From a virus: a stretch of 51,154 nt of DNA. Shown in pieces: positions 2,249-41,270 of the stretch. The notes below the pieces were generated by a model, which did no database searches, had not been told where the DNA came from, and worked only from the letters and a program-made list of their open reading frames with translations. Position numbers and translations under genes: made by a program. The stretch spans positions 1 through 51,154 of IMG/VR virus record IMGVR_UViG_3300044630_004167; one strand, written 5' to 3'. The first letter of the stretch is position 1. Each line of letters starts with the position of its first letter.

Positions 2249-4045
2249 TTGGGCATTTTTAATCGTAGCCAGGGTGATTCAACCCCTAGGCAACCACGTC
2301 AAGGCATTCGAGCAACCTCTGCCGGACGACGTCCAACCTCTAACCCAACAGGTCTCCCGTCTAACTCAGTTTTTATCAATCCAAACTACTCTCCTGCTGA
2401 AACAGCACCATACTCTTCTATACGTCCGCTTACTGCAGCTGCAGTTCAGGTCCCTCTTAATGACCGCGGCGAGGCAGAACGTTTCCGTAGCCGTAGAAGC
2501 TCTACATCTTCCAGCTGGCAATCAGACGCTTGGGAATACTACGACGCTATTGGTGAAATTAAATACGCATTTTCTCTTGTTGCGTCTGTTGTTTCTAGAA
2601 TCCGTCTTTATGCAGCCGTTGTTCAGGATCCTGCAGAAGCTCCAACTCCTATACGTCTAGCAGATAACATCCCACTGGACCTAGCTTCTGCTGCAGAACG
2701 TGCTCTCTCACGTCTAGACTCAGCTTATGGAGGCCAAGCAGGTCTTCTTCGCGACTGTGCCCTTAACCTTGCTGTAACTGGCGAATGCTATTTAGTCCAA
2801 TCTCCTGCAAGAGCTGGACACGGAGTCGCAGAAAGCTGGGACATCCGCTCTATAGACGAGCTTAGCGTTGACTCAAAGGGCAACTACCTAATTGCTGGAC
2901 GTCGAGACTACACTCAGGGTAACTCTCCGATGACTTCTACTAACAAAAACGTTCTCAAACTCCCTTCAAACGCTTTCGTTGGACGTATTTGGAGAGCTCA
3001 CCCACGTTTTTCTGACGAAGCTGACTCCAGTTTAAAGGGAATGCTTGATCTTTGTGCTGAATTGCTGCTTTTAAACCGTACTTTCCGTGCTACTGCAAAA
3101 AGCCGCCTCAACGCTGGTGCTCTTTATTTGCCAGACGGCCTCTCTGTAGCCTCTACACCTGACCCAAACTACCCTTACGAGGACGCTGACGGTCTTTATT
3201 CCGAGCCAACCCCTGAAGAACTGCAGGATGAGTTCGAAGATCAGCTAATCGACGCGATGACTACCCCGATTCGTGACGAAGATTCAGCTTCAGCCGTTGT
3301 TCCACTGATTATTCGTGGTCCGGCTGACCTTGGCGACAAAATTAAGCAGTTCAAGTTCGAGCGTAGCTTCGATCCAGCCCTTGCAGAGCGTTCAGACCGC
3401 GTTTTGGACCGTATTTTGCAAGGAATCGACGTCCCTAAGGACGTTGTAACCGGTCTAGCCAACGTAAAGTACTCAAATGCGATGCAAATCGACGAAAGCC
3501 TCTACAAAGCACACATTGAACCTCTAATGTTGCTGATTGCAGACGCTTTTACCGTTGTTTACCTACGTCCTTACCTAATTGCCAACGGATACAACCCTGC
3601 AGACGTTGAAAGAGTCGTAATTTGGTACGATCCATCCGCAGTTGCAACTCGTAACGACCGTGCAATGGACGCAGACTCTGGTTTTGACAAGATGGCGGTC
3701 TCATACGACACTTGGAGACGTGCACACGGCTTCACTGATCAAGATGCACCTGGCCCAACTGAGCTTGGCCTACGTCTTTTGATCGAAAAGGGTGTAATCA
3801 CCCCAGAGTTGACCGAAGCATTGCTTGCTGCGGTAGCACCAGAGGTTATGCAAGCAGCACGAGAGGCCCAACAAGGGGCTAGCGTTGCTCCAGTACCTCC
3901 TGATGTATCACAACTACTTCAAGGCGTCCAGCCAGGTGCAGAAGCCCCTACAGGGGCACCTGAAGCGGCTCCTACCCCACCCGCTCCAGCTGAAGAAGCT
4001 CCACCAATTCAGTTGGCTGAACCGACAACAACCCCTCAACAATAA
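2249..4045 (+). CDS. portal protein
   Basis: 598 residues. The start is the TTG at 2249, preceded by CAGGAG with 6-nt spacing. The sequence has the hallmarks of actinophage portal proteins. A disordered Ser/Pro/Arg-rich N-terminus is followed by WEYYDAIGEIKYAFSLVASVVSRIRLYAA (around residues 94-122, wing region). A central part contains VWRxxPRFSDEADSSLKGML-like helices. A helical stem region follows (ILQGIDVPKDVVTGLANVKYSNAMQIDE, about residues 389-416). The C-terminal 70 residues are Pro/Ala/Glu-rich and disordered. The portal dodecamer forms the DNA entry vertex and nucleates head assembly. It is followed at once by the Dps-like fusion gene. Confidence 0.88.
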   Translation: MGIFNRSQGDSTPRQPRQGIRATSAGRRPTSNPTGLPSNSVFINPNYSPAETAPYSSIRPLTAAAVQVPLNDRGEAERFRSRRSSTSSSWQSDAWEYYDAIGEIKYAFSLVASVVSRIRLYAAVVQDPAEAPTPIRLADNIPLDLASAAERALSRLDSAYGGQAGLLRDCALNLAVTGECYLVQSPARAGHGVAESWDIRSIDELSVDSKGNYLIAGRRDYTQGNSPMTSTNKNVLKLPSNAFVGRIWRAHPRFSDEADSSLKGMLDLCAELLLLNRTFRATAKSRLNAGALYLPDGLSVASTPDPNYPYEDADGLYSEPTPEELQDEFEDQLIDAMTTPIRDEDSASAVVPLIIRGPADLGDKIKQFKFERSFDPALAERSDRVLDRILQGIDVPKDVVTGLANVKYSNAMQIDESLYKAHIEPLMLLIADAFTVVYLRPYLIANGYNPADVERVVIWYDPSAVATRNDRAMDADSGFDKMAVSYDTWRRAHGFTDQDAPGPTELGLRLLIEKGVITPELTEALLAAVAPEVMQAAREAQQGASVAPVPPDVSQLLQGVQPGAEAPTGAPEAAPTPPAPAEEAPPIQLAEPTTTPQQ

Positions 4046-4062
4046 ACTAAGGAAAAAATCAA

Positions 4063-5220
4063 ATGGATATGGTAATTACTCAAGGAGCAGTTCCGGGCAA
4101 GCAAGATCTTGCCCAGGCTCTAGCTGTACTGCTTGCAGATACAGTGACATACAAATTTCTAGCTCAAGGCTATCACTGGAATGTACGTGGAATGAACTTT
4201 GTTCAGTTCCATGACTTCTTCGGAGATATCTATGAAGATCTAGAGTCAGCTATAGATCCGATTGCAGAGAGCATTCGTGCACTCGGATTTGATGCTCCGT
4301 TCTTGCTGTCAGATTTTGCTGCTCTTACATCTGTTGGAGCAACTCCAGTATCAGCTGATCCTGTTGACATGTCTAGATCTTTGTACGAAGCGAACCACTG
4401 CCTTATTGGCTGTACACGTTCAGCATTCGATATTGCCAACGCTTTGAATGAGCAGGGCATCGCTGACCTACTAGCAAGCAGAGACAGCTCTCACACCAAG
4501 TTTGCATGGAAGCTAGGTACCATTTGTGGAATTGACGCAACATCTATGGGTGACTTGGGAAAATTTGAGGCTGAACTACCTTTAACAGCATCGCAAGATG
4601 TGGTAGATCAGCCTGCTAACCCAGTTTATGTTTCAGCAAAAAACACTGATGGTTATCTAAGCAAGAAGTTGACTTTCTCGGCTAACACTGAAAAGCAAAT
4701 CTCTAGCTGGGCCAAAGAACATAACTCGGGTAAAGATTTAGATGACATTGTTTCTGTAGCAACTGTTCGTGCAGTGTATCGCAGAGGTGTTCGTGCTTTC
4801 ACTGCTAGCGGTAAGCCGGACAGCGAACGCGATTCATGGGCGGAAGCTAGAGTACAGGCATTTCTATCTTTGGTAGAGAACAAGAAGCCGTCTAACGTAC
4901 GTTACACACAGGACAACGACTTGCTCCCACTAAATCACCCATTAAGCACTATTGATAAGAATTCAGGTCTCACAGCATCTATTGTTGCTAGCCGAGACCT
5001 GTCTATTGCTATCAAGCCTGAACTGGACTATGACGGTCCAGAAGATGCAATCTACTCCTTAGCTGAATATTCAGGTTTGGGGTATGAAGTAGTTCCAGCA
5101 CTGCGTGCTGTTTGGAAGCGAGCTATCGACGATTACGAGCCTCCTTTTGATAGAGCAGTTCAGTTAGCTACTAAACTGTATCAAAGTAAAGACGCAGACC
5201 TTTTGCCAACTAAGCAGTAA
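4063..5220 (+). CDS. Dps/ferritin-like protein fused to a phage C-terminal module
   Basis: 385 residues, with AAGGA upstream of the ATG. Residues 1-155 match the Dps (DNA protection in starvation) fold. YHWNVRG at 37-43 gives His38, FHDFFGDIYE gives His50, and AIDPIAESIRALG gives Asp65 and Glu69, the same spacing as the Dps ferroxidase ligands. The usual acidic ligand four residues after the second His is Gly54, with Asp55 next to it. Residues about 190-385 are a separate domain (TVRAVYRRGVRAFTASGKP, WAEARVQAFLSL, DLLPLNHPLST with Asp286) that I associate with actinophage structural proteins. A degenerate copy is near the N-terminus of the next gene. Position between portal and giant proteins suggests a virion component that could coat or protect DNA or sequester iron. 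Ferroxidase activity is uncertain. Confidence 0.7.
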   Translation: MDMVITQGAVPGKQDLAQALAVLLADTVTYKFLAQGYHWNVRGMNFVQFHDFFGDIYEDLESAIDPIAESIRALGFDAPFLLSDFAALTSVGATPVSADPVDMSRSLYEANHCLIGCTRSAFDIANALNEQGIADLLASRDSSHTKFAWKLGTICGIDATSMGDLGKFEAELPLTASQDVVDQPANPVYVSAKNTDGYLSKKLTFSANTEKQISSWAKEHNSGKDLDDIVSVATVRAVYRRGVRAFTASGKPDSERDSWAEARVQAFLSLVENKKPSNVRYTQDNDLLPLNHPLSTIDKNSGLTASIVASRDLSIAIKPELDYDGPEDAIYSLAEYSGLGYEVVPALRAVWKRAIDDYEPPFDRAVQLATKLYQSKDADLLPTKQ

Positions 5221-5234
5221 GAAAGATCTCTCAC

Positions 5235-8200
5235 GTGAGTAAGAAAATTAATCTAATTAAGCAGTTTGACGACCACCTAGCAGTGGAGATGCCGGAAGAT
5301 GTTTCCGTATCCGAGCTAATCTTTAATCTAACTTTGGAGCAAAACTCTAAAGTAGACGAGATCCGCAGGGTCACCGAAGAACAATTAGAGACTGTTGCAA
5401 CTAGAGCATTGACTGCTTCAGCATCAGATAATCTTACTGTTGACGTACGCTATTTCAACGTTGTCCGCGAGCTTTCCCACTTCCTTAGTCTGGCTACAGA
5501 AGGTCCACGCCCAAACGGTGAAGACCGCAACACCGATCTACTACCTGAGTACCACCCAAGCTCTACTGCCGAATTGTCACTTGACCCAGCCATGTTCCGT
5601 ATTCGCCGTGGAGAGTGGTATTCAGCAGATCCTCGTATTGAAGATGAAGAGGCTCGCCCGTTAGTTGCAGCTGTATATGGCTCACACCCAATGGACGTTA
5701 AGTTTCAGCACGCTTACACAAGATTACTAGCTCTACCTGCAGGTGCAGTGCCTAGAGATATTATTGTAAGCCCGATGACTGCAAGCCTTTGGGGCAAAGT
5801 AAAAGGCTGGGCTGCAAATGTTTTCAAGGGTAAAAACTCTAGATACTGGCGTTCGCTACGTGCCAGCCAGCAGCTTCGTGATTCAAAGGGTCGCTGGATC
5901 GAGATGGGTGGCGGTGGAAAAGTAAACGTTCGATTCCCTAGAGGAAACGTACGCAGCGTTACAGGTAAAGTTGCTGGGTACTCCACAGAAGCTGGATTCA
6001 TCGACTTTGAAGTAAAAGGCATTCCTGGTCTAAAAGACGGTCTCTATAAGATCCCTGCAGCTGCTTTTGAAGGCGTTGCCGCCATTCTTCCAGCAGAAGC
6101 TGTTAAAGATCTCCCAATACAAAATGCAGTTCCAGACAACGATCTGATTCTAGACATTAAGGATTTAAAACCTACTGAATACCCAGAAGGCTGGGCTCCA
6201 TCTCCTTACACTGTAACTAACCCTGCTTTTGACGCAGAAGAAGTTAACGCAGATGCTCAGTACATGTCTGGTGACGGGTACAACGTTGTATACATCAAGA
6301 ACCCTAAAGCCAGAAGCAGCAACCCAAAGCGTACTCAGGCTTTCATCGATAAAGCCAAAGAGCGTTATGGCGACAAACTTCAAATTATTGGCGATGACGG
6401 CACTGAAAACTTGGATATGTCTAAGCCACTATATTTCTTGTGGGGCTCAAAGCGTAGTAAAGGAGCTACCCCTATTGGTATTGCTCAGGACTGGGCTGGT
6501 GTACAGAAGATTGCTGGAAATGAAGATGATCGTTTTGGTGACAAAGATAACCAAAGCCTTACTCCTGAAGAGCAACCTAGATCCGTTAAGCCAAAGGCTG
6601 AAGTAGGTCCGTCGCCTAAGGAAGAAACCCCTAGTGAAGAGTCTGACGAGACTGAAACATCTAAATACGACGATGGGTCAAATCCTGACGGTACTATGCC
6701 TGCAGGCTGGACTAAAATTGACAACAATACCTACCTATCTAAAAACCGTAGATACAAAGTAACCTACGGATATGGACAAGCTGACACAGAAATTGTTTAT
6801 GACCCGATCAGCGGGGAAGTGTCTTTTTACCCTGTAATGGCCGATAACGTCTACACTCTTACCGAAAGAGACGGCAACGCTGACTTTACTAAGGATGTTC
6901 CAGTACCGTTCTTCAACTGGTTACAAGTGCAAGAGCAAATAAATGCTATTGAAAAACTTGAAGCTCTAGATCCGCTATTCAACTCAAACATAGACAGAGT
7001 TCCACCTCAGGATAGAGAAAAGTATTCTGAATTTGATCCATCAGAAAGATTCGAATACGACTACTTCGGTCCTGATTCTAAGGTCATTACAAGAGCTAGT
7101 GCAATCGTTGCGGAATTTTTAGAGAGAGCTTTTCCAGGATCCTTTAAAGACGAGAAGTTTAACGAAAACGGTTTTTGGACTTCTAGACTAAAAACAGGAA
7201 CTTCAGCTAAAATATTTGATGCTCAGGATGGACTACAGACAGTTCAGATTTCCGAAGAAGGCGTTGGGATAATTAAGAGTATTCCAGTATATCCTGGCGA
7301 AGATCCAAACACTATTTTAAACGAGGCTCTTAGAGAGTACTTAGTCTTACCTGACGAGCTAGCCAACTTTAACCTAATGAACTCTTTTAAAGATTTTGAC
7401 ATTACCAATGGGAGAAATGCAAAAAAGATTCTAGACGGTATCCAGTCGACCATATACGAAATGTATATGGCAAAAGAAGCCGGCAGCGATAACAGAATTG
7501 AAGACGATCTATACGATCTAGGTAAGTTAGCTAAAGGACTAAAAAGCTTTATCTCAGATAAAGAAGCTAGAGACACAGACCTAGGCCCATCTCCTAAGGA
7601 AGAAGATGGCCGTGCCAACCCTAGAAATGCAGACGACATTCCAAACGAAAGGCAGATTGGACGTCTAGTTGCAATCTTAAACTCTCGTTTTATGGCAGAC
7701 AACCCTGAGATAGTTACTAAGGTTCGTGAAATTAAAAAGAACCCAGAAAACCACACAGTTAGAGAAGTTAACGAACTTGCATATCAGATCGAAAAAAACT
7801 TTAGAGAGCTCAGTAAATCAGAAAAAGAGCTAGCTACTTGGATTCAAAAAGATGCTCTAAATTGGGCACTAGACAATAAAAAGTGGCCTGAAGGTTTAGA
7901 AGAAGAATACAGAAAAAAGATCCAAGACAACACTCTAACTAGAGATGAAGCTTCCACAGCGTTTGATATTTCTAGAGCTGCACCTTTCAAGCCTAGAGTT
8001 GCACCTCCATTAACTGAAAAAGAAATAGCAGATATGGAAGAGGCAAGAGCTGCTGCTCAGACTGTAAACGGTAAGCCTGACTACTGGCTAGCTGATCAGC
8101 CTACAGAAAAGCCTAAGTATCTATCTACCAAGCTAGGTCCCGGAGAGTTTCCTCCTAGCGACGGTCAGCTAGTTGGAATCGAAAGATTCCTAGAAGACCG

Positions 8201-11200
8201 CGATATTCCAGAAGATGTTAAGCAAGAGTTCTTAGACACCTACCAGCAGATGAACTCTCGTGAGATCCGTGAGTGGTACTACAACTTTAAAGAATACCCG
8301 TTCAAAGAGCAGTACCGTCCAAAGAACAAGTATGGGTTGGTTGCTAAAGCGTTTGACGGTGCTAGCGATAGAATGCTTGCAAGCATCGAGCGTATCTTTG
8401 ATAAGGGTCTGGCAAGCGACCAGGAAATAGCCAATATTGTAAAGCTTATTCCTAACCTAAATATATATGAAGTAAGCACTCAGATTATTGGCGAACTTAA
8501 AGCCCGTGAAGATGCTCACGATAGCATTATTCTTCAAAAAGCTACTGCAGACGGTACCTCCATAAACGATCTAGATCTACTATCGCTTATTGGACGTTCA
8601 AACGCTCCTGACGGCTGGGAAAACTACAAGCCTACAGAAGAAGCTAGAACTGAGATCGCTGCTGACCAAGCAGACCAGGAAGAAGTAAAGAAGTTTGCTG
8701 GAAGAGAAGCACGTAAAAATGCTGCTCGCAGATCACGCTATGCTCTATCTCGTTTAATGGCTCATATTGCCAAGCGTAGAGATGAAGTTAATGCAGACGG
8801 CAAGAGGATTCTTGATGGTGCGTTAGAGGACGTTCAAGATTTAAAGCGTCTACTAGACCTACGTAACAAGTATGTAATCACCCCTGCTAAGGTTATGGAA
8901 CGTCTTCAGACCATCATGAAGGGTCTAAATGACTCGGATGATGCTCATACTTATGGCCGTATCCGTAAGCCTAATCCAAAGACTATGGATGTCTTAAACA
9001 CCCTTTCTGGCATGGTAGACGAGGTTATTGGCCGTGACGGTTACCACAATGGGCCTTACGAGTATGACCCTGTAGCTGAAGACGAGCCTGCAGAAAGCAC
9101 ATCCGCTACTAGCTTTGAACCTAACTCTGGAATGTCTTCAGAGATTCCGTCTGCAAACGATCCAGTTCCTGGACTTATTGACTACTCTAACCACCCAAAC
9201 AGGCCTAGACCCCCTAGAAGAGTTAAACCTAAAGCTTTCTGGGGAGTTGTTCGTAACTGGCTATCTGGAGCAAAGACTTGGGACGATGTTGACGAGGCTC
9301 TAGAGGGTAAGACCCTACACTATGTAGACATAGAAACTACGGGAGTATTTACTCCTCTACAGCCAGATATTAAAAACGATCCGATTCAGATTGCTATTAA
9401 TAAAGTTGTAGACGGACAGATTGTTGACACATTTGTAAGCTACGTAAACCCTGGATCTCCTTTGAGTGCATGGGCTATGGCAAACCTAAAAGATGATAAA
9501 GGAAACCCGATCACTCAGGAGTGGATAGCGAGTCTTCCAAGCAAGAGTGAAGTTATAGCTAAAGTCTTAGAGTTCTTAGGTCCAGATGCTGTATTAGCTG
9601 GGCACAATGTTGCTGCTTTTGACTTAGAAGTTATCAACAGAACGCTAAGAGAAGCTGGATTAGACGAGTACGTTCCTGCTGGAATAATCGACACTCTTGG
9701 ACTAGCTGACTACATCTATAACCCATTCAGTAAGACTAACCCAAGTGGGCCATATAAAATGGGTGACTTTGGGCCAAGCGGTTCTACCTCCCTAGAGGCT
9801 TTGGGAAGATATGAAGGAATTTCTTACGAAGGACTTCACAACTCAGTCAATGACCTAGACCTAAACATTAAACTTTTAAGTCAGATGATTAAAAGAGCTA
9901 AATCAAATACCGATCTAATTAAAGACAATGTTTTTGATCTTGATTTATCAGACAATGATTACGATGCAAAACTTGCTAAATACGAGCCAGCATATGAAGC
10001 TTATATTCAACGTGCTTTAAAGTTTATAGCCGATAAAGCTATTGAAGCAGCGGCTAGAGGGTCTGAAACAAGTGTTCAAGATCTGGAGAATCAAGCAAAC
10101 AATGCTCGTAACTCTACATCTTCAGAAGGTACTCCTGCAAGTGACCGTCCTACTTTCTCAAGTTTGTTCCCTCCAACAGACGATGGTGAGCAGCCTATCA
10201 CTGTAAGTAACGTTGTTGCAGATCCTGTAAATAGAATCAAACCTCCTAGCCCTAAGCAGCTGAAGAGCGTTGAAAGACGTCTACTAGACCCTAGAGGATT
10301 AGTTTCAGCTGAAAGAGCAGCTGAGATATGGGACCTACTGCCTAACGTCAACTCCAATGAAATTGGTGATCTAGTTAGGGAGATGGATAGTTTAGAGCTT
10401 GACTATGCCATTGCTAATGATCTAGAAGTAGATAGTCTTCGAGTCCCTATTGGGTATGACCTAGACAAGTTGAATGCTTACCTAGATAGAAAATTCCCTA
10501 ACCGTAGAAACAACACTGGCCCATCTCCTAAAGAAGAAACTCCTTTGATTGAGTCAGAAGGAAACCCAAGAGGAAATATTTCTCGTCTAATATATTCAAT
10601 GGTGGAATTGGAAGATGCACTTAAAACAGCTGAGACTCCAAGTGAAAAGCGTAATATAGCTTCGGCTATTGAAAGAGTTGCAGGTGCTATCGATCAGATC
10701 AGTACTAGACCGTCTCCTAAAGAAGAACGCCCAGCGGATAGAAAAAATAAAGCAGATCTTGCTGCTAACAAAATGGATATCTCCTTTATCGGAAAAGATT
10801 TTACTGACGAGCAGAGAGATGCCATTGAAGCTGGCTTACGCGGCTGGTCCGTTGTCATCAAAGCTTTAGCTGGTACAGGTAAGACCACTACTCTAATTGG
10901 ACTTGCAAAAGCTATTCTGAACTATTACCCTCAAAAAAGAATTCTAGCGATGGCTTTCAACAAAGCTATCAAGTCTGAGCTTGAGACTAAGTTCCCTGGA
11001 AATACTGAAGTAAGAACTATGGACTCTCTTGCGTTCCAAGCTGGAGCGAACAGTAAACTATCTAAAAAGTTTAGCGCTATGCGAAAGCAGTCTGACAATA
11101 ACAATAGACCAATTAGCGGACTTGCAGATCTAGCTGACTACTTTAAAGTTCCGGATGAGGTAGAGCTTGTTAACGGAGAAAGAATCTCTAAGTTTTTGGC

Positions 11201-14200
11201 AGTCAAAATTGCACTTAAAGGCCTAAATAACTGGACTATTAGTGGTGACGAAGAAATATCTAGAAAGCATTTTGAAGAGCTTATTCCAGCAAAAGTAGGT
11301 GGAAATGAAGCTTATACTCCTTCGTTGCTAGCACTGGCTAAAAAGATCTGGGCAGACAAGCTATCCCCTCACGATGCATCTGTTCGTCAGGTTTCAGTCA
11401 ATTTCAATGACATGATGAAGAACTTCGCCTTAACTCACCCTAACCTTAAAGAAACAAACTCTAAGGGAGAGAGTATCCACGGATTAGGTGCTATTCCTGA
11501 CATTCTTCTTATTGATGAAGCTCAGGACACCAACGGAGTATTCTATAAAATGCTGGAAGAGCAGTCCACCCTACACAATAACGGAATTCAACTCGTTGTT
11601 GTTGGAGATCCTCACCAATCTATCTATGGATTCCGCGGGGCAGTAAACAGCCTAGGAATGTTCCAAAGAGATGTTACAGTCCCTCTTACTATGATGTTCC
11701 GAGCTGGTCAAGAAGCCGCTGACTATGCCAACCAAGTTCTAGAAATTAAGGACGAGGATGACGAGAGATTAGTTGGAAACCCGAATAAAAAGACAGAGGT
11801 TGTAGTTCCTGGAAGCATGGTTGATCCAGATGCAATTTTGACCATGTCAAATGCCGGTGCTCTAGATGAGATTATGACACTGCTTGGTAGAGGACTATCT
11901 ACTGGTGTAACTAGAGAATTTAAAGTGGAAATGAACAGCTTCTTGGCTACTGCTAAGTGGTTGCTATTTGGTGCAAACCCTAAGTATCGTCCAGGAAACA
12001 TGCATGAAGATCTTTCTGGATACGATAGTTGGAAGCAGATGATAGATCTTCACACAGAGGATAAAGACCCGTCTGTATCTAAGCTTCTTTCTATCCTTGA
12101 AAAAACCGAGGAAAGACTTCAAGCCGCTAAACAGCCTTCGGAAAGCAAGGACGTCTTTAAAGAGCTAGAAAGAGTTGTATATAACTCTAGAATTATTGGA
12201 ATCCCGGGATTTGTTAGACCTGAGGATGGTAATTGGGGTACCGCTGGTAATCTTGGAAACTTTATTAGCTACCAAATTAAAAATGGCAACATCCGTCTAT
12301 ACAACACCGGAGATGCTAAGCCTTGGACTCCAGAACTAAAAAACCCGAACAATGGAACTAAGAATAACTCTGACACTCTAAAATCTATGGGATACGTCTG
12401 GGATACCGGAAAGACTTGGGACTGGAACCTGCCAGTTGAAGGTGACGGCAGTGCTCAGCTTGAAGCTCTTTACAATGCACTAACTGGTAAGGATGTCGAC
12501 ACTGTAGTTCTAACTATTCATAGATCTAAAGGTTTAGAGTTCCCTAAGGTTCGCCTAGGATCTGACATGGCAGTACCAAACGCTAAAAAAGATGCAGAGT
12601 CTATCAAAAAAGGTATGATGCCTAGACCTCTAGCTACAGAAAACTTAAATCTAGTTTATGTAGGTCTTACTAGAGCTATGGACGAACTTGATCCTGGATC
12701 AGCAGACTGGCTTGACGACAAAGTTGAAGAGTTTAGAGAAAAGCGTAAAGACTATCAGGCTCAGCTTGAGCTTCAATCAGATAAAAAAGACAGCGCTGGC
12801 CCGTCAGCAAAGCAGGAGCCTCTTTCTGGATTTAGAGTTGTTGAAGTAGACCCTAATACTCTGCAAAAGGGTGACATTGTAGTTACTCCTAAGGGAAACA
12901 AAAGAATCAAGATGATAAGTCGCCACGATAGCGACGAAGTTAGCGTATTCTTTGAAGCTCTTGATGGCGGGGGCGGTGCGTCATATGTCAACGGCCAAAT
13001 GGCTAAGAAAGTTATTGAAGGCCCTTCTCCAAAAGAAGAGTCCCCAGCTTCTGCCCTTAACCCGAACAGCAAGTATGACTACACTACCGGCTGGGACACT
13101 AGCTACCTAGGTGGGCCTAATAACGATGTATACAAGCACTCTTGGAAGTCTCCAGACGGTAAGTATGAAGCCAACATTATAAACGCTAAGATATCTGTTC
13201 GTAAAAATGGTAAGACCATATTTGAAGGAGATAATGCTCCTGACGCTGTGGCTGATCAAGAAACCGTTAAAGAATCTAGTTTAGACTTAGTTGCGCAGGC
13301 AATTGAGTCCGACTCAGACGTGGCTTTAGTTATGCCTAAAGCCAAAGATGGAGAATCTCAGACTACCTACGAGTCAAGCACTCTTTCTAGAAAGATTAAA
13401 TCATTGAAAGATTCTATTGCTTCAACTGACGATCTTATTTCTTACATGGAAGGCCGAGGCAGAAATCTAGCTGAGACTGACCCAGAAGTTATGCGCGACT
13501 ATGAAAAAAATAAAGCTAAGCTAAAAGGTTTAGAGTTTGTTGAATCATATCGTAAACAGACTGGTAAAAATAGAGTGACTGCCCCTAACTCTGTTTTAGA
13601 TGGTACAAACGAAATGTTTACTGGGTCAACTTCTATGCAGACAGCAATGTCTCAGGAAGAGATTGATGCAGCATACGACGCCGCTATTCAAGCCGAGTAT
13701 GACTACCAAATGTCTCTTGAGCCAATCTCTCGTGACCCTCAGTTCCCTGGCGGAGAGCGTGGTCTTAAGGAGCTTACAGCTGCAGTAAACGCTGCTGAAA
13801 GAGTATCGGCTCAGCTAGAAACTCCTGTTCTTGACCCTATCCCTGCTGGGTTAGATCCAGAAGAGTACGTAGCTCAACTTAGATCCGCTCTGCCAGATAA
13901 GAAAGTAGAACTGTTTACCGATGAGAATGGTGACAAGTTTGTAAAAATCTCTGAAGCAGTAAACAAATCTGGAATTCTTGGGGCATCCCAAGCAATCTTT
14001 GGCTGGAAAGATCTAGAAGATACTGGCCCATCTCCTAAAGAAGAAAGCCCTAAGAAGCCTATAAAGAGTAACAAAGACGCTGTAGATCAAGTTATGGCTC
14101 AGGTCTCAGAAGCTATGGACAAGGGAATCATTCCTTGGAAGAAGCCTTGGACTGGCGGCGGAGCCTACCTACCTACATCAGGAGCTACTGGCAAAAACTA

Positions 14201-15290
14201 CAAGGGTGGAAACTTAATCATTCTAGAAGTTCTAAGCCAATTTAGAGGCTACAAAGGTACTCGCTGGTATACAAAGAACGCTATTGCTAAGCTTGGTGGC
14301 TACGTCGACGATAACGATGGCGTACTTATTACTAAGGTTGTTAAGAGTAAGTACACTGTAAAACCAGACGAAACTAAAGTTGTAGTTGACCCAAAGACTG
14401 GAGATCAGAAACCAGACGATGGCTCTAGAACTAGGACTAGACTCGATGTTGACGTTGTTTACAACGAGGATGTGGTTAAGGGTATTACTATTCCACCACT
14501 TCCTAGAAAAGAGCCTCCTGCAATTCATGAGATTGAAGACATTATTCTAGAGTCTTACGCAGGAGGACCTAACATTGTATATACCCCTGGCGACTCAGCT
14601 TTCTGGTCACCTCAGACTGACACAATTAGCTTGCCTCTAAGAGAGCAGTTCAACAGCACTGAGGAACACCTAGACACCTTGTTCCACGAACTTACTCACA
14701 GTACCGGTGCTGCAGATAGACTAGACCGTAAGGATCTACTAGAGAACTACGGTACACACAAGGATGTCCGTGCTCGTGAAGAGCTTATCGCGGAGATTGG
14801 TTCGGCTATTCTAGCTGCTATGTTTGGTGTAAACACCAGCATTGAAAACGTAACTGCTTATGTTCAGTCTTGGAAGAGATTCCTAGAATCAGAGCCAAAC
14901 GCTCTATTCGAGGCAGCTTCTATGGCTAGCAAGGCAGTTGACTATATTCTAGCTGGCTACTATGAAGATAACCCGGATGAAGAGTATGATCCAGAGAAAC
15001 AGACTGAAGCTGAGTCTATGCCAATTGAAGAGATAACTGGTGAAGACAGTACTTTTGGTGGTCTTGGAAACGGCATAAACTATCGCATCGAAGGTAACCG
15101 AATCTTCCTGATGGGTAGCACTATGGCTGCTAAGGATCTAATTAAGAGCCTATCTATAACCCCTAAGGGTAAGAGCATACCGTTCTCATTCTTCTGGGAT
15201 AGAAAAGCCAGCAACTGGAGTATTAGTCTGGCCGATCCTGAGGATAGAGTAAATATTCTTAGCCAGCTAAGAGATGCTTTAGGTGGATAA
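5235..15290 (+). CDS. giant polyvalent protein A: DnaQ exonuclease, SF1 helicase, ArdC and metallopeptidase
   Basis: 3351 residues, GTG start. The N-terminal part has FLSLATEGPRPN...DLLPEYHPSST (about 80-110), a weak copy of the C-terminal module of the preceding Dps fusion, then RDSKGRW at 215-221, a signature also found in proteins B and C. Seven GPSPKEE-type linkers (residues 458, 784, 1762, 1825, 2522, 2596, 2931) cut it into eight segments. Recognisable domains are a DEDDh exonuclease (1359-1555), a UvrD/Rep-type helicase (1849-2488), a small SH3-like barrel (2529-2595, with a LQKGDIVV core) and ArdC plus zincin (2945-3243). Segments 465-783, 791-1350 and 2603-2930 are not recognised. 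The combination matches polyvalent proteins of phages and conjugative elements, which are delivered with DNA. Whether it is cleaved is unknown. Confidence 0.85.
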   Translation: MSKKINLIKQFDDHLAVEMPEDVSVSELIFNLTLEQNSKVDEIRRVTEEQLETVATRALTASASDNLTVDVRYFNVVRELSHFLSLATEGPRPNGEDRNTDLLPEYHPSSTAELSLDPAMFRIRRGEWYSADPRIEDEEARPLVAAVYGSHPMDVKFQHAYTRLLALPAGAVPRDIIVSPMTASLWGKVKGWAANVFKGKNSRYWRSLRASQQLRDSKGRWIEMGGGGKVNVRFPRGNVRSVTGKVAGYSTEAGFIDFEVKGIPGLKDGLYKIPAAAFEGVAAILPAEAVKDLPIQNAVPDNDLILDIKDLKPTEYPEGWAPSPYTVTNPAFDAEEVNADAQYMSGDGYNVVYIKNPKARSSNPKRTQAFIDKAKERYGDKLQIIGDDGTENLDMSKPLYFLWGSKRSKGATPIGIAQDWAGVQKIAGNEDDRFGDKDNQSLTPEEQPRSVKPKAEVGPSPKEETPSEESDETETSKYDDGSNPDGTMPAGWTKIDNNTYLSKNRRYKVTYGYGQADTEIVYDPISGEVSFYPVMADNVYTLTERDGNADFTKDVPVPFFNWLQVQEQINAIEKLEALDPLFNSNIDRVPPQDREKYSEFDPSERFEYDYFGPDSKVITRASAIVAEFLERAFPGSFKDEKFNENGFWTSRLKTGTSAKIFDAQDGLQTVQISEEGVGIIKSIPVYPGEDPNTILNEALREYLVLPDELANFNLMNSFKDFDITNGRNAKKILDGIQSTIYEMYMAKEAGSDNRIEDDLYDLGKLAKGLKSFISDKEARDTDLGPSPKEEDGRANPRNADDIPNERQIGRLVAILNSRFMADNPEIVTKVREIKKNPENHTVREVNELAYQIEKNFRELSKSEKELATWIQKDALNWALDNKKWPEGLEEEYRKKIQDNTLTRDEASTAFDISRAAPFKPRVAPPLTEKEIADMEEARAAAQTVNGKPDYWLADQPTEKPKYLSTKLGPGEFPPSDGQLVGIERFLEDRDIPEDVKQEFLDTYQQMNSREIREWYYNFKEYPFKEQYRPKNKYGLVAKAFDGASDRMLASIERIFDKGLASDQEIANIVKLIPNLNIYEVSTQIIGELKAREDAHDSIILQKATADGTSINDLDLLSLIGRSNAPDGWENYKPTEEARTEIAADQADQEEVKKFAGREARKNAARRSRYALSRLMAHIAKRRDEVNADGKRILDGALEDVQDLKRLLDLRNKYVITPAKVMERLQTIMKGLNDSDDAHTYGRIRKPNPKTMDVLNTLSGMVDEVIGRDGYHNGPYEYDPVAEDEPAESTSATSFEPNSGMSSEIPSANDPVPGLIDYSNHPNRPRPPRRVKPKAFWGVVRNWLSGAKTWDDVDEALEGKTLHYVDIETTGVFTPLQPDIKNDPIQIAINKVVDGQIVDTFVSYVNPGSPLSAWAMANLKDDKGNPITQEWIASLPSKSEVIAKVLEFLGPDAVLAGHNVAAFDLEVINRTLREAGLDEYVPAGIIDTLGLADYIYNPFSKTNPSGPYKMGDFGPSGSTSLEALGRYEGISYEGLHNSVNDLDLNIKLLSQMIKRAKSNTDLIKDNVFDLDLSDNDYDAKLAKYEPAYEAYIQRALKFIADKAIEAAARGSETSVQDLENQANNARNSTSSEGTPASDRPTFSSLFPPTDDGEQPITVSNVVADPVNRIKPPSPKQLKSVERRLLDPRGLVSAERAAEIWDLLPNVNSNEIGDLVREMDSLELDYAIANDLEVDSLRVPIGYDLDKLNAYLDRKFPNRRNNTGPSPKEETPLIESEGNPRGNISRLIYSMVELEDALKTAETPSEKRNIASAIERVAGAIDQISTRPSPKEERPADRKNKADLAANKMDISFIGKDFTDEQRDAIEAGLRGWSVVIKALAGTGKTTTLIGLAKAILNYYPQKRILAMAFNKAIKSELETKFPGNTEVRTMDSLAFQAGANSKLSKKFSAMRKQSDNNNRPISGLADLADYFKVPDEVELVNGERISKFLAVKIALKGLNNWTISGDEEISRKHFEELIPAKVGGNEAYTPSLLALAKKIWADKLSPHDASVRQVSVNFNDMMKNFALTHPNLKETNSKGESIHGLGAIPDILLIDEAQDTNGVFYKMLEEQSTLHNNGIQLVVVGDPHQSIYGFRGAVNSLGMFQRDVTVPLTMMFRAGQEAADYANQVLEIKDEDDERLVGNPNKKTEVVVPGSMVDPDAILTMSNAGALDEIMTLLGRGLSTGVTREFKVEMNSFLATAKWLLFGANPKYRPGNMHEDLSGYDSWKQMIDLHTEDKDPSVSKLLSILEKTEERLQAAKQPSESKDVFKELERVVYNSRIIGIPGFVRPEDGNWGTAGNLGNFISYQIKNGNIRLYNTGDAKPWTPELKNPNNGTKNNSDTLKSMGYVWDTGKTWDWNLPVEGDGSAQLEALYNALTGKDVDTVVLTIHRSKGLEFPKVRLGSDMAVPNAKKDAESIKKGMMPRPLATENLNLVYVGLTRAMDELDPGSADWLDDKVEEFREKRKDYQAQLELQSDKKDSAGPSAKQEPLSGFRVVEVDPNTLQKGDIVVTPKGNKRIKMISRHDSDEVSVFFEALDGGGGASYVNGQMAKKVIEGPSPKEESPASALNPNSKYDYTTGWDTSYLGGPNNDVYKHSWKSPDGKYEANIINAKISVRKNGKTIFEGDNAPDAVADQETVKESSLDLVAQAIESDSDVALVMPKAKDGESQTTYESSTLSRKIKSLKDSIASTDDLISYMEGRGRNLAETDPEVMRDYEKNKAKLKGLEFVESYRKQTGKNRVTAPNSVLDGTNEMFTGSTSMQTAMSQEEIDAAYDAAIQAEYDYQMSLEPISRDPQFPGGERGLKELTAAVNAAERVSAQLETPVLDPIPAGLDPEEYVAQLRSALPDKKVELFTDENGDKFVKISEAVNKSGILGASQAIFGWKDLEDTGPSPKEESPKKPIKSNKDAVDQVMAQVSEAMDKGIIPWKKPWTGGGAYLPTSGATGKNYKGGNLIILEVLSQFRGYKGTRWYTKNAIAKLGGYVDDNDGVLITKVVKSKYTVKPDETKVVVDPKTGDQKPDDGSRTRTRLDVDVVYNEDVVKGITIPPLPRKEPPAIHEIEDIILESYAGGPNIVYTPGDSAFWSPQTDTISLPLREQFNSTEEHLDTLFHELTHSTGAADRLDRKDLLENYGTHKDVRAREELIAEIGSAILAAMFGVNTSIENVTAYVQSWKRFLESEPNALFEAASMASKAVDYILAGYYEDNPDEEYDPEKQTEAESMPIEEITGEDSTFGGLGNGINYRIEGNRIFLMGSTMAAKDLIKSLSITPKGKSIPFSFFWDRKASNWSISLADPEDRVNILSQLRDALGG
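9309..9899 (+). other. Protein A domain: DnaQ-like 3'-5' exonuclease
   Basis: Residues 1359-1555. The three exonuclease motifs of the DEDDh class are present: DIETTG (Asp1365, Glu1367), GHNVAAFDLE (His1457 to the following Asp) and HNSVND (His1535, Asp1540). It should hydrolyse single-stranded or mismatched DNA, or RNA, 3'-5' with two metal ions. A divergent paralogue is in protein B. Confidence 0.85.
10779..12698 (+). other. Protein A domain: UvrD/Rep-type SF1 helicase
   Basis: Residues 1849-2488. In order: Q-motif-like FTDEQRDAIEAG, Walker A ALAGTGKTTT (Lys1883), AMAFNKAIK (Ia), LLIDEAQD (Asp2094), VVVGDPHQSIYGFRGA (III), LTMMFRAGQ (IV), TIHRSKGLEFPKV (V, around 2433) and LVYVGLTRAMDEL (VI, Arg2480). 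All catalytic motifs look intact, so an active 3'-5' DNA helicase or translocase is expected. It is preceded and followed by GPSPKEE-type linkers. Confidence 0.9.
14067..14963 (+). other. Protein A domain: ArdC-like antirestriction domain with zinc metallopeptidase
   Basis: Residues 2945-3243. The N-terminal part has the ArdC signature (IIPWKKPWTGG near 2965, then SGATGKNYKGGN and RGYKGTRWYTKNA), known to bind single-stranded DNA. It is followed by a zincin with HELTH (His3151, His3155) and a downstream REELIAE (Glu3182-Glu3187) that can supply the third ligand. ArdC proteins from plasmids protect incoming DNA from restriction, so this domain probably protects injected phage DNA. It is the last segment of protein A. 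Confidence 0.85.
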
Positions 15291-36758: not shown

Positions 36759-39700
36759 ATGTTTGACTTAGAAAACACTCCCACTTTCTCTGGTAGAGAC
36801 GGGTCTTTGGCCCTATTTACCTTTGAAAATAAAGGAGTTATTGTTGACACTGAAGTCAACCTCGTGGTACAAACTGGATCGTCAGACTCTCTCTTATCAT
36901 CTAAAGACTGGAAGACCGAGTCCGAAGAGTTTTCTTCCAATGTGCTAGAGCTTGCCAGTGGGGCACTTTCAGATTTAAATATGAAGATCTTGGCTTCAGC
37001 CAATAGACTCTACACTATACCAAAAGGTGCTCAAGCTGAAGCTAAAAAAGCTTTGGAATGGCGTAAAGAGCACGATCGCGGGGGTACCCCTGTAGGGCTT
37101 AACACTGCACGCACTCTTGCTAAAGGTGGGCAGATTGGCCTAGCCAAAGTTCGCCACATTGCTAAGTATTTCCCTCGTCACGAAGTAGACAAAAAGGGCA
37201 AGGGCTACAAGCCTGGCCAAGATGGCTTCCCTTCAAACGGACGAATCGCGTGGGCCTTGTGGGGCGGTGACACCGCCTGGAGTTGGGCCAGAGCCATTGT
37301 CGAACGTGAGAACAAGGCCGTAACTGCCGATGCTTACATCGAGTCTGAATACACTTCTTATCTTCCAGAGCAAAATTACGATGCAGATCTAGAGGATTTT
37401 ACTAAATCTGTATATCTAGATCCGACTACAGCTCCAGAATTTATTGCTAGAGTTCGAATGGACGGGTCTGGAATAGATCGTTTATATAAGATTATTAGAA
37501 GTGGGGACGTCTTTGTTTGGGACGACGGTCAATGGGATAATCTTGGAAATATCAATGGGACTATTTGGGACTATGACAGTCAGCTTGATGAAGATTACGA
37601 TGACGTAGAAAAGACTCATATCTCTATCGATCCAGATTCTGCAATTATCATATCAGCTAGACTCCAACAGAATCCTTACAAATGCGTTTCTGTATCGGAC
37701 ATTGATGCCGATGAAGCAATGCTTGCAGCGGAAGCTTATGTAGAGCTAGACCTAGTTACTATTGACAGATCTTTAACTGCTGCTGGTGAAGACCCTATTG
37801 GATCCGACGGCTACACCGACGCCGAGCGAGCCGCTAATGCTGATCGTCAATCTAGAGATCGAGGCGGCAAATTTGCCCCTCAAGGTGGAAGTGCTCCCGG
37901 AGCTGCTCCTGTTGCCGAAAGAGCTAAACAGAAGACTATTCCATTAGGAGACTCTTCTCGCCCTCTAGATACATCAGGTATTCTTGGACGCCCACGCTCG
38001 CCAATCGATAAGCCTCAGGCTAAGATTAAAGGCGATCTTCCTGCTATGACGCCTAAAGATCTTCACAATCTACTCTATGACTGGACCGGTTGGGTAGACT
38101 CCCAGCGTGCTGTAGCAGGGGGCGGGCCGACTCAGGGGATTCAGAGCTCTGCTGCCGAGAAAGAAGAGCCTACTAATGTAGAAACCTATGACCACCCTCT
38201 TCTACAAAAATGGATTAAATCTGTAAATGAGCCTAAGAAGACTCAATCTGAAAATGAAGATGACTCCTGGGCTAAGCCTGTAGTTGCTGCAACAGAAGCT
38301 CCTAAGGGTAAAGAGATGACCCCTAAAACTTCTGACGTAAAACCTATATACCTAGCTATAGTGGCTCCGGACGATCCACGTGCAGTTTTAAACTTAGTTG
38401 CCATAGTTCCAGAAAACTCTGCTTCACCAAAACCGATGACATACCTTCGCAAGGAGGGCGAGTGGGTAAGAGACCCTAGCGTTCTAAACGATCTTAAGTC
38501 AGCAACCCCACCTCCAGTAGTTCCGTTAGACAAATCCACTCTTAACGACGTTCTTCTTCAAGTAGATAAGTCTTCTAAACCGGTAGCTGCTTCGGCTCTT
38601 CTAGACGTTGACCATCTACTAACTGTTTTGTGGGGGCCTAACCCGCTAGTATCTGCTGGCGGCCTCGATCGCAACAGAGGTAAAGCCGAAGAGCTTCGTC
38701 ATTATTGGACAATCGGCAAGGGTGGTTTAAAAATTAGATGGGGCACAGCCGGAGACTGGACACGTTGCGTACGTAATCTAGGTAAATACCTTGGCCCACG
38801 TGCTAAAGGATACTGTGCCTTGCGTCATAAAGAAATGACTGGCATGTGGACTGGCGATAAAAAACATCGTCAAATCTATGGAAATAAGCGTGGCGGCAAA
38901 AATGTCTTTAGCACAGAGCTGATTGAGTCAACAGACAACATCATAGTTAAATCTGAAGTTTCAGCCAGAGCTGCCGATGCAAAACTTAGAGTCGGACTCA
39001 CTGCTGCGTCTGGGATTATTGTTACAGAGGGCCTTAAGTTTAAGATTCCTCTAGTTATCCCTGAAGAAATGGAGTCTGGAGATGGACGTTCATTTATTCG
39101 CGGTGCTCTGAGTGTTCGTGAACTTCCACTACCTTTAATGTGGCAAATGAAGACAGCTGAGGGGCACATGGGCTCTGTTGTTGTCGGCCGTATTGATCAT
39201 ATGGAGCGTACTTCTCAGGGTATTGGAAATGCCTACGGTGTATTTGACACCAGCCCGTTTGGTAGAGAAGCGCAGAGACTGATTCAACATGGATTTATAA
39301 AAGGTGTATCAGCTGATCTAGATCAGTTTGAGGCAAAAGAGATCAAACCAGAAGCTTCTGAAAACGGGGATGATCTAGGAAAGAGCAAACTTTCTATAAA
39401 TAAAGCACGCGTAATGGCTGTTACAATAGTACCAAAGCCAGCATTCCAAGAATGCAAAATTATTATAGAAGATCTAACAAACACTTATCAGGAGGATAGC
39501 ATGATTGCCGACGGCATCTATCAGGATGACTCGGACGCCGCCAATGCTCAAGCACTAGTTGCTTGTGGCATTATTGCTGGCGTAATCCCAGTCGTTCCGC
39601 CAAACGAGTGGTTTAATGATCCTAAGCTAGATAAGGCCACCCCTATCACTGTCGATGACAATGGTAGAGTTTTTGGCCACATTGCAGCTTGGCACGTTGA

Positions 39701-41270
39701 CCACATTGGACTGGCATTTGGAACCAAACCACCGCGTAGCAAGAGTGGCTACGCATATTTCCACACCGGAGTAGTGAGAACTGACTCGGGCAAAGATGTA
39801 CCTGTCGGTCAGCTCACTCTAGCAGGTGGACACGCTTCTCTAGAAGCTAGTGCATTTGAAGCAGTAAAGCACTATGATGACACAGCTTCTGCAATTGCCG
39901 ATGTTCACGCAGGCGAAGATGCTTATGGAATCTGGGTGGCTGGTGCTCTACGACCTGGGGCTAAGCCAGAGCAGATTCGTGCACTCCGTGCATCTGCTCC
40001 ATCAGGTGACTGGCGTCCAATCCGTGGAGGCCTCGAGCTTGTTGCTGTGTGTCAGGTAAATGTTCCTGGATTCCCTATTGCCCGTGCTCGTGTTGCTTCT
40101 GGTGCTATTATGGCTCTAGTTGCTGCAGGTGCACTACCTCTAGCTAGAATGAAAGCCGACCCTACATCGGAGTTGAGTGCACGCATCGAGCGTCTACAAA
40201 ACCTACGTTTTATTGAGTCCGCAACAGCATCGACTGAATCTATCCAAGACTATTCAGATAAGATTGCTGAACTATCTGCCAGAGTAAAAAGCGGAGAGTT
40301 GTCATACATCTCGCGTGAAAAACGTGAAAAGCTAGCTAAAGAAGGCAAGGCTCTTCCAGACGGATCATTCCCGATCCAGAACGTTGAAGATCTCCGTGCT
40401 GCCATTAAATCTTATGGTCGAGCAAAGGAAGCTAATAAGTCAGCTGTTCAGAAGCACATCATTAAGATGGCCGGGAAGTTGAACGTAAGACATCTTATTC
40501 CAGAGAGTTTTAAGGATCAGTCGCAGGATGCAGTAACCGCAAGCGTAGAAAATCTACGTGACCGTATTGCTGCTCAGGCTTTGGTAGCTAGTGCAAATGA
40601 AGTACAAGCTCGCGTACTTGCTATTAAGGCAAGCCTGGGAAAAGCATTAGCGGCTGATGGATCTATGCCGGAGGAAGCTCCTGCTCCAGTAAGTGAAGGT
40701 AACGTCCCTGTGCCAAGTGAAGGCGACAAGGAAATTATTGGAAACCCTGAAGAAGAGGGTTTTAAATTCACACCTGGAATCAATCAGCCGCGTGACTATG
40801 CCGGACGTTTCCAAGACGTCCTAGCTCGACTAAAGCAAGATCTAGGTACCTCGGGTCTTCAAAATGTAGTTGACAAAGTTAGTGACGTTGAAAAGGTCTA
40901 TAAAACTGGTAGCTATTCAGATGCGGCTCAGGCAGCAGGGGAATTAGTTGCTCTACTAGACCGTATAGATTCAGGTGCTCTAGGATCCTCTTTAGAGAGT
41001 GTCCGAGAAGCATCTGCAGAACTTGGAAGAGTTATAGGCAACTTGCCTCTTCCATTTGAAAACCAGAACGCCAAACTTAGGTTTAGCGATCTACCACCTG
41101 CCCTTAAAAACCTTATGAAAAATATGGTTGAAAGAGTAAGTGAAAAATTAGGTGAAAAAGAGGGCATGGAGGCTACCTCCGATATCGCAGAGTTTATGCG
41201 TGGTGGAGACCTGTTTAGTCAAGGAGACATATCGTCTACTATGGCTAGGATGCTCAGACTACTAACTTAA
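36759..41270 (+). CDS. capsid maturation protease polyprotein C
   Basis: 1503 residues, with GGAGG before the ATG. Domains in order: an actinophage domain with EWRKEHDRGGTPVGLNTAR...RHEVDKKGKGY...GRIAWALWGG (88-190); YTDAERAANADRQSRDRGGKF (352-372); RHYWTIGKG...KIRWGTAGDWTRCVRNLGKY (about 620-715); the prohead protease (about 761-903; His803 in EGHMGS, Ser851 in GVSADL); a domain with DDNGRVFGHIAAWHVDHIG (about 965-1125); a DUF6582-like KLAKEGKALPDGSFPI...DLRAAIKSYGRA (about 1190-1245); and a helical C-terminus with RDYAGRF. The protease should cleave the capsid protein's N-terminal part and scaffold during maturation. It is directly upstream of the capsid gene. An internal start at 39501 may yield a separate scaffold-like product. 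Confidence 0.85.
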   Translation: MFDLENTPTFSGRDGSLALFTFENKGVIVDTEVNLVVQTGSSDSLLSSKDWKTESEEFSSNVLELASGALSDLNMKILASANRLYTIPKGAQAEAKKALEWRKEHDRGGTPVGLNTARTLAKGGQIGLAKVRHIAKYFPRHEVDKKGKGYKPGQDGFPSNGRIAWALWGGDTAWSWARAIVERENKAVTADAYIESEYTSYLPEQNYDADLEDFTKSVYLDPTTAPEFIARVRMDGSGIDRLYKIIRSGDVFVWDDGQWDNLGNINGTIWDYDSQLDEDYDDVEKTHISIDPDSAIIISARLQQNPYKCVSVSDIDADEAMLAAEAYVELDLVTIDRSLTAAGEDPIGSDGYTDAERAANADRQSRDRGGKFAPQGGSAPGAAPVAERAKQKTIPLGDSSRPLDTSGILGRPRSPIDKPQAKIKGDLPAMTPKDLHNLLYDWTGWVDSQRAVAGGGPTQGIQSSAAEKEEPTNVETYDHPLLQKWIKSVNEPKKTQSENEDDSWAKPVVAATEAPKGKEMTPKTSDVKPIYLAIVAPDDPRAVLNLVAIVPENSASPKPMTYLRKEGEWVRDPSVLNDLKSATPPPVVPLDKSTLNDVLLQVDKSSKPVAASALLDVDHLLTVLWGPNPLVSAGGLDRNRGKAEELRHYWTIGKGGLKIRWGTAGDWTRCVRNLGKYLGPRAKGYCALRHKEMTGMWTGDKKHRQIYGNKRGGKNVFSTELIESTDNIIVKSEVSARAADAKLRVGLTAASGIIVTEGLKFKIPLVIPEEMESGDGRSFIRGALSVRELPLPLMWQMKTAEGHMGSVVVGRIDHMERTSQGIGNAYGVFDTSPFGREAQRLIQHGFIKGVSADLDQFEAKEIKPEASENGDDLGKSKLSINKARVMAVTIVPKPAFQECKIIIEDLTNTYQEDSMIADGIYQDDSDAANAQALVACGIIAGVIPVVPPNEWFNDPKLDKATPITVDDNGRVFGHIAAWHVDHIGLAFGTKPPRSKSGYAYFHTGVVRTDSGKDVPVGQLTLAGGHASLEASAFEAVKHYDDTASAIADVHAGEDAYGIWVAGALRPGAKPEQIRALRASAPSGDWRPIRGGLELVAVCQVNVPGFPIARARVASGAIMALVAAGALPLARMKADPTSELSARIERLQNLRFIESATASTESIQDYSDKIAELSARVKSGELSYISREKREKLAKEGKALPDGSFPIQNVEDLRAAIKSYGRAKEANKSAVQKHIIKMAGKLNVRHLIPESFKDQSQDAVTASVENLRDRIAAQALVASANEVQARVLAIKASLGKALAADGSMPEEAPAPVSEGNVPVPSEGDKEIIGNPEEEGFKFTPGINQPRDYAGRFQDVLARLKQDLGTSGLQNVVDKVSDVEKVYKTGSYSDAAQAAGELVALLDRIDSGALGSSLESVREASAELGRVIGNLPLPFENQNAKLRFSDLPPALKNLMKNMVERVSEKLGEKEGMEATSDIAEFMRGGDLFSQGDISSTMARMLRLLT
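39039..39467 (+). other. Protein C domain: prohead serine protease
   Basis: Residues 761-903. FKIPLVIPEEMESGDGRSFIRGALS, TAEGHMGSVVVGRID and FIKGVSADL follow the order of HK97-type capsid maturation proteases. His803 and Ser851 are the likely catalytic pair, about 48 residues apart. It ends with VMAVTIVPKPAFQECKI, the usual last strand. Confidence 0.8.
39490..41270 (+). CDS. possible internally initiated scaffold product of C
   Basis: AGGAGG at 39490-39495 lies 5 nt before an in-frame ATG at 39501 (residue 915 of C). Initiation there would give a 589-residue protein (39501-41270) lacking the protease. It would contain the DDNGRVFGHIAAWH domain, the DUF6582-like segment and the helical C-terminus. 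Nested scaffolds made from the 3' part of a protease gene are known in lambda (C/Nu3). The site falls at the boundary just after the protease domain, where such a start makes sense. Confidence 0.5.

Follow-up and report, generated by a model that had tools for sequence, protein, structure and literature searches.

A portal-adjacent Dps mini-ferritin in an uncultured actinobacteriophage-related lineage, probably made for the virus head

The sequence studied here, called the window below, is the whole of a 51 kb IMG/VR virus record (IMGVR_UViG_3300044630_004167, positions 1 to 51,154). Its head operon runs in the order portal, Dps ORF, giant A, giant B, protease protein, major capsid protein and tail genes. 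The portal protein (598 aa; 2249..4045, + strand; phrog_776 portal, E 1.7e-101) is 70% identical to that of its nearest record, Actinomycetia phage DSL-LC01, and its relatives in the phage collection belong to actinobacteriophages almost without exception. Directly downstream, starting 17 nt past the portal stop codon and preceded by a ribosome-binding-site-like AAGGA with its spacer (4049..4062, +; read from the sequence), lies a 385-aa ORF with an ATG start (4063..5220, +), in which Pfam, PHROG and PDB matches and an AF2 model identify a Dps, or mini-ferritin, domain fused to a C-terminal module; features within this ORF are likewise on the + strand. Giant A (3351 aa; 5235..15290, +) combines, by domain matches, a divergent copy of the module with exonuclease, UvrD helicase, ArdC-N and MPTase-PolyVal domains. 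It is followed by giant B (6848 aa; 15727-36273), by a 1503-aa protein of the same operon that contains a head maturation protease (36759..41270, +; phrog_859, phrog_18402, phrog_29860) and by the major capsid protein (41414..43456, +; phrog_777, E 1.7e-76).

The largest proteins of this operon show features of their own. A GPSPKEE-like heptapeptide, possibly a linker or processing site, occurs seven times in A (5235-15290) and twelve times in B (15727-36273), often between recognisable domains; among relatives from the first scan, only L012 has several copies (5). A motif resembling RDxxGRWIEMGGG lies towards the beginning of several late proteins (around residue 215 of A, around residue 30 of B and in the protease protein) and also occurs in DSL-LC01 proteins (L001), making it a second module common to the head operon. 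By eye, giant B contains acetyltransferase-like (RRRGLATALL) and ADP-ribosyltransferase-like (YRGTGV) repeats as well as an exonuclease-like stretch. A phrog_2859 domain occupies residues 86-186 of the protease protein (36759-41270) and is found again at the N-terminus of the protease-capsid fusion of Roseobacter phage CRP-821.

The N-terminal part of ORF 4063-5220 is a genuine Dps domain (residues 1-158, core ~12-158; 4063..4536). Residues 19-155 match Pfam Ferritin above its cut-off (E 7.5e-12), the domain matches phrog_3636 in PHROG (E 7.2e-19), and the nearest solved structure is PDB 8ff9, the Pseudomonas aeruginosa Dps PA0962 (E 7e-22 over residues 14-154). In an AF2 model of the full ORF, made from an alignment of 36 window and viral-contig sequences, the Dps domain blocks mostly reach pLDDT 93-98 and form the canonical helices A, B, short BC, C and D (residues 13-40, 46-73, 82-88, 100-127 and 131-155), i.e. 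a four-helix ferritin-like subunit in which B and C are separated by a short helix. The best structural matches of the model are all Dps, with a Foldseek E of 1.4e-7 for 8ff9 and a structural alignment at Z 22.9 and 2.0 A over 148 residues, and the Dps fold that a first-pass annotation had proposed for residues 1-155 is thereby confirmed. Profile scores, structure and purifying selection together rule out a chance match or a pseudogene. Among named types, the NCBIfam equivalog cut-offs for E. coli Dps and DpsA are missed (best 38.9 bits vs 170 and 37.9 vs 114); on these scores, the window protein would be classed as a Dps that is not an ortholog of the E. coli or cyanobacterial/halobacterial types named by NCBIfam. 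Most of its nearest cellular relatives among the matches listed (80 genome loci, pattern-based scan) are Dps of proteobacteria, with 34-40% identity. The domain, which would be expected to assemble as a 12-mer, has a net charge of -11 (mostly -5 to -21 across the family), and its N-terminal 20 residues, with one lysine and a net charge of -1, do not form the basic terminal tail of the DNA-binding Dps subgroup; such a tail does not define all Dps, since the title of PDB 1o9r describes DNA that is protected without being bound. Beyond the domain, a predicted disordered linker of ~36 residues (160-195; 4540..4647; AF2 pLDDT below 50) leads into the C-terminal module.

Is the iron site intact? His38 (4174..4176), His50 (4210..4212), Asp65 (4255..4257) and Glu69 (4267..4269) align with H37, H49, D64 and E68 of PA0962, in which Fe1 is bound by H37, D64 and E68 and Fe2 by H49 and E68 (PMC10002758), so that the ligands of the inter-subunit ferroxidase site match the PA0962 set. 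The same four ferroxidase residues had been picked out in the first-pass annotation, and they are invariant in the 48 first-set sequences covering the site and in the 72 aligned second-set sequences (window included), although Dps identity between portal clusters averages only 47%. A reservation had been attached to Gly54 (4222..4224), the place of an extra acid in some Dps; the glycine is indeed there, but PA0962 has no ligand at this position and relatives carry G/A/Q/K/E/S/R, so the idea of a lost ligand is ruled out and the reservation falls away. Judged against PA0962, the nearest solved structure, the diiron site is thus complete, and the protein would be expected to have ferroxidase activity, oxidising Fe(II) with H2O2.

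The C-terminal module (residues 196-385; 4648..5217; module length about 182 residues) consists of a DUF5824 half, which runs to the motif DNDLLPLNHPLST (residues 284-296 of the Dps ORF; 4912..4950), and a second helical half that ends in the tail DADLLPTKQ (5191..5217). The Pfam DUF5824 (PF19141) match scores 27.6 bits vs a gathering cut-off of 25, the module modelled alone by AF2 is helical (pLDDT 89.9, pTM 0.85), and DxDLLP lies at most 15 residues from the C-terminus in 58 of 64 distinct module proteins. The first-pass annotation, whose span of 4063-5560 reaches past the Dps ORF into giant A (which begins at 5235), held that this module recurs around residues 80-110 of A. The recurrence is real, with NTDLLPEYHPSST around residue 101 of A as the counterpart of DNDLLPLNHPLST, but that range was too narrow: in hhalign, the module profile aligns with the profile of the giant A N-terminus over 103 columns (probability 97.5, E 5.5e-12), which puts a divergent DUF5824 half at ~residues 18-120 of A (5286..5594, +). 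When all A sequences are left out of the profile, it still picks up the N-terminus of A in many relatives, and at this position (E 1e-6 to 6e-3). Elsewhere, DUF5824 stands upstream of an S78 protease and a capsid domain (MCP) within one chain of Roseobacter phage CRP-821 and, in Salinibacter phages, immediately precedes the capsid gene; among viral proteins, those named XkdF, prohead protease and ChaB match the predicted module fold. Against the PDB, the fold finds no recognised relative (Foldseek E 0.62 and Z 5.5 at best), which is no proof of a new fold. The company that the module keeps, i.e. giant A, prohead proteases and capsid genes, suggests a role in head assembly, and in the window phage the module is likely a docking part for the prohead.

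Two further motifs accompany the module in relatives. A four-cysteine cassette (GVKCxNCxxYxGGxxCx~10CRF) sits between Dps and module in longer fusions (L015-L018, L021-L024, L052, L056, L063), and it is also present in L039, L048 and L075, which have no Dps, in L043, L069 and L078, and near the C-terminus of a DSL-LC01 head-protease ORF (L001 33430-35985). We do not claim iron-sulphur binding for this cassette, as its match to Pfam HIPIP is below the cut-off (E 0.013). The second motif, CWxGYxQVGMKxKxGKxVPNCV, lies upstream of many modules (L016, L022-L024, L037, L054, L063, L075, L084, L001).

How general is the arrangement? Loci were picked by two portal-based scans of contigs without regard to Dps, and the resulting Dps counts therefore carry no selection for Dps; one false match (L077 13276-13650) was removed from the first Dps tally, and L001 was left out of the second structure alignment. 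Dps is the first ORF after the portal in 129 of 142 informative contigs, defined as those extending 400 nt or more past the portal, which greatly strengthens the earlier placement of the gene in a phage structural operon. With portals clustered at 95% identity (n=88), Dps is present in every member of 80 clusters, in no member of 7 and in some members of 1. Its start lies -4 to +24 nt from the portal end in all but one case, stop and start codons often overlapping, and Dps divergence is correlated with portal divergence (Mantel rho 0.57, 0/999 permutations). Selection is purifying, with dN/dS against L007/L008 of 0.20-0.24 for the Dps domain and ~0.10 for the module, and of 0.03-0.24 for the Dps domain across the tested pairs with unsaturated dS. 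The portal-adjacent Dps is no passenger but belongs to the core genes of a large, uncultured, actinobacteriophage-related group, and the two portal scans rule out an oddity of the window only. A single-protein search of viral contigs with the Dps-module fusion as query returned no matches. Phage-encoded Dps is already known; the core position in the head operon and the module fusion look new. In the virus literature searched, with subscription papers mostly outside its reach, we found no paper that describes a portal-adjacent Dps and none that names DUF5824.

The module and the Dps domain are not inseparable. In the first 73 informative loci (window included), the module is fused to Dps in 35 and encoded by the next ORF in 15, and behind other Dps no module was seen; the second set contains many standalone Dps of ~150 aa, several without a recognisable module alongside. 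In DSL-LC01 and nine contigs, a module protein follows the portal without Dps. L052 and L056, with Dps and module, share a portal cluster (at least 95% identity) with L048, L050, L051 and L039, in which the start of helix A (the first ~30 residues) and the module are kept in frame and the rest of Dps is gone, an evolutionary deletion that spared the module. Dps is thus dispensable, being absent from 7 clusters and lost from some members of one. In Gordonia phage Phendrix, which is cultured and more distant (40% portal identity), the portal is followed by a 1480-aa protein and not by Dps.

What might a mini-ferritin do behind a portal gene? The best explanation, to which we give a probability of roughly 45%, is an active mini-ferritin that consumes Fe(II) and H2O2 and is loaded into or onto the prohead; the Dps protein is probably either a component of the virus head or made for it. 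That it is active is argued from the Dps fold, the invariant ligands and purifying selection. That it is packaged is argued from the portal-adjacent position in most of the lineage, from a module common to A and prohead proteases, and from the retention of this module where Dps has been deleted in frame. Dps would be produced along with the portal and retained in or on the prohead, with the fused module providing the docking in the window phage. Inside the head, Dps would use H2O2 to consume Fe(II), and Fenton chemistry would thereby be kept from the packaged genome and from co-packaged giant effector proteins, with less hydroxyl-radical damage as the outcome; Iyer et al. (2017, PMC5512222) argue that large proteins with the domain types of giant A are packaged and injected. 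We count against the prohead reading that Dps is dispensable and that the Dps of other phages lies outside the head genes, and, because many lineages have a standalone Dps free of the module, the module cannot be the general route into the head. More tentatively, and with the odds somewhat against it, we propose that in this phage lineage the head itself serves as an encapsulin-like compartment, in which a portal-adjacent mini-ferritin, loaded into the capsid in some cases via a C-terminal module, removes iron and peroxide around genome and effectors.

The main rival places the same chemistry in the cytoplasm. As a late antioxidant, Dps would spare host and replicating phage DNA from peroxide, and its place in the head operon would serve timing only. 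Phage Dps outside head genes, as in S-SRM01 and in Streptomyces and Aeromonas phages, have been read as helping the host cell (PMC8008677), standalone Dps without a tag occurs in many lineages, and peroxide may limit hosts of the acI type; freshwater acI actinobacteria, here a candidate host only, needed added catalase in pure culture (PMC7308576). This explanation accounts neither for the constant position of the gene right after the portal in 80 clusters nor for its repeated fusion to a module common to A and prohead proteases, and we regard it as possible but rather doubtful. Less probable by a good distance is an injected effector, with Dps subunits exiting the head alongside A and the DNA to sequester iron or peroxide in the newly infected cell. 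The module that the Dps ORF has in common with giant A, whose polyvalent-protein domain types are argued to be injected, speaks for such an effector; the module has no known injection signal, however, and an assembled dodecamer of ~9 nm (size from PMC10002758) should not cross portal and tail intact, so that passage would require unfolded or dissociated subunits. Of the earlier suggestion that the protein scavenges iron and peroxide on entry, the scavenging fits the invariant ligands and the entry is doubtful. We think it more improbable still that the Dps fold has been reused structurally, as a prohead scaffold, core or portal-side organiser with metal chemistry secondary, since portal adjacency and the fusions would suit such a role but four ligands invariant at 47% average identity would not, and the Dps gene is sometimes lost while the head genes remain. 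Finally, condensation of packaged DNA by a nucleoid protein, also suggested in the first-pass annotation, is very improbable given the acidic domain, the one-lysine N-terminal tail and a family that is acidic throughout, even though the family name recalls DNA, some Dps bind it and PA0962 Dps cleaves it in vitro (PMC10002758).

If Dps is in the head, an enzyme that detoxifies iron and peroxide would be a standard virion part, an echo of encapsulins that bears on how virions withstand oxidants in water, and DUF5824, a domain of unknown function, would gain a testable function in prohead docking. Were Dps confined to the cell, it would still be a late-expressed stress gene, unusually fixed in this large group of uncultured phages.

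Known systems each resemble part of this picture. PA0962 (8ff9) shares the fold, ~34% of its residues and the identical four diiron ligands, and differs as a cellular protein without the C-terminal module and outside any phage head operon. Other Dps proteins of phrog_3636 are phage-borne as well, in Gratiaviridae, Synechococcus phage S-SRM01 and Streptomyces, Aeromonas and Lactobacillus phages; those of Gratiaviridae are discussed as metabolic stress genes (PMC8008677), the S-SRM01 gene, the one checked, lies away from portal and capsid genes and has no DUF5824 module, and, as far as checked, known phage Dps lack the portal and module context. DSL-LC01 (OQ999401; PMC10611076) has the head-operon layout, the closely related portal and a module protein followed by giant A, whereas its module protein has no Dps domain. 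Phage polyvalent proteins (PMC5512222) are represented here by giant A, in which several effector domains, including ArdC-N and MPTase-PolyVal, form one chain in a phage head operon with portal and terminase and are joined to the module that the Dps ORF also carries; the words Dps and ferritin are absent from the main text of that survey. For encapsulins, the IMEF cargo (PMC6668986) is likewise Dps-related, with a flexible ~37-residue linker, a C-terminal targeting part and a shell of capsid type, and the Dps domain is a fitting cargo where ferritin-like or peroxidase proteins are the rule. The window has no encapsulin gene, however; the neighbours are portal, protease and phage major capsid protein, the shell is a genuine phage capsid with portal and protease, loading is here our inference, and the tail DADLLPTKQ, compared with the IMEF tail only, is unlike the IMEF-type targeting tail (HKKKGFTVGSLIQ). 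The Dps-module protein is not a member of the encapsulin iron systems, which are the nearest parallel to how it might work.
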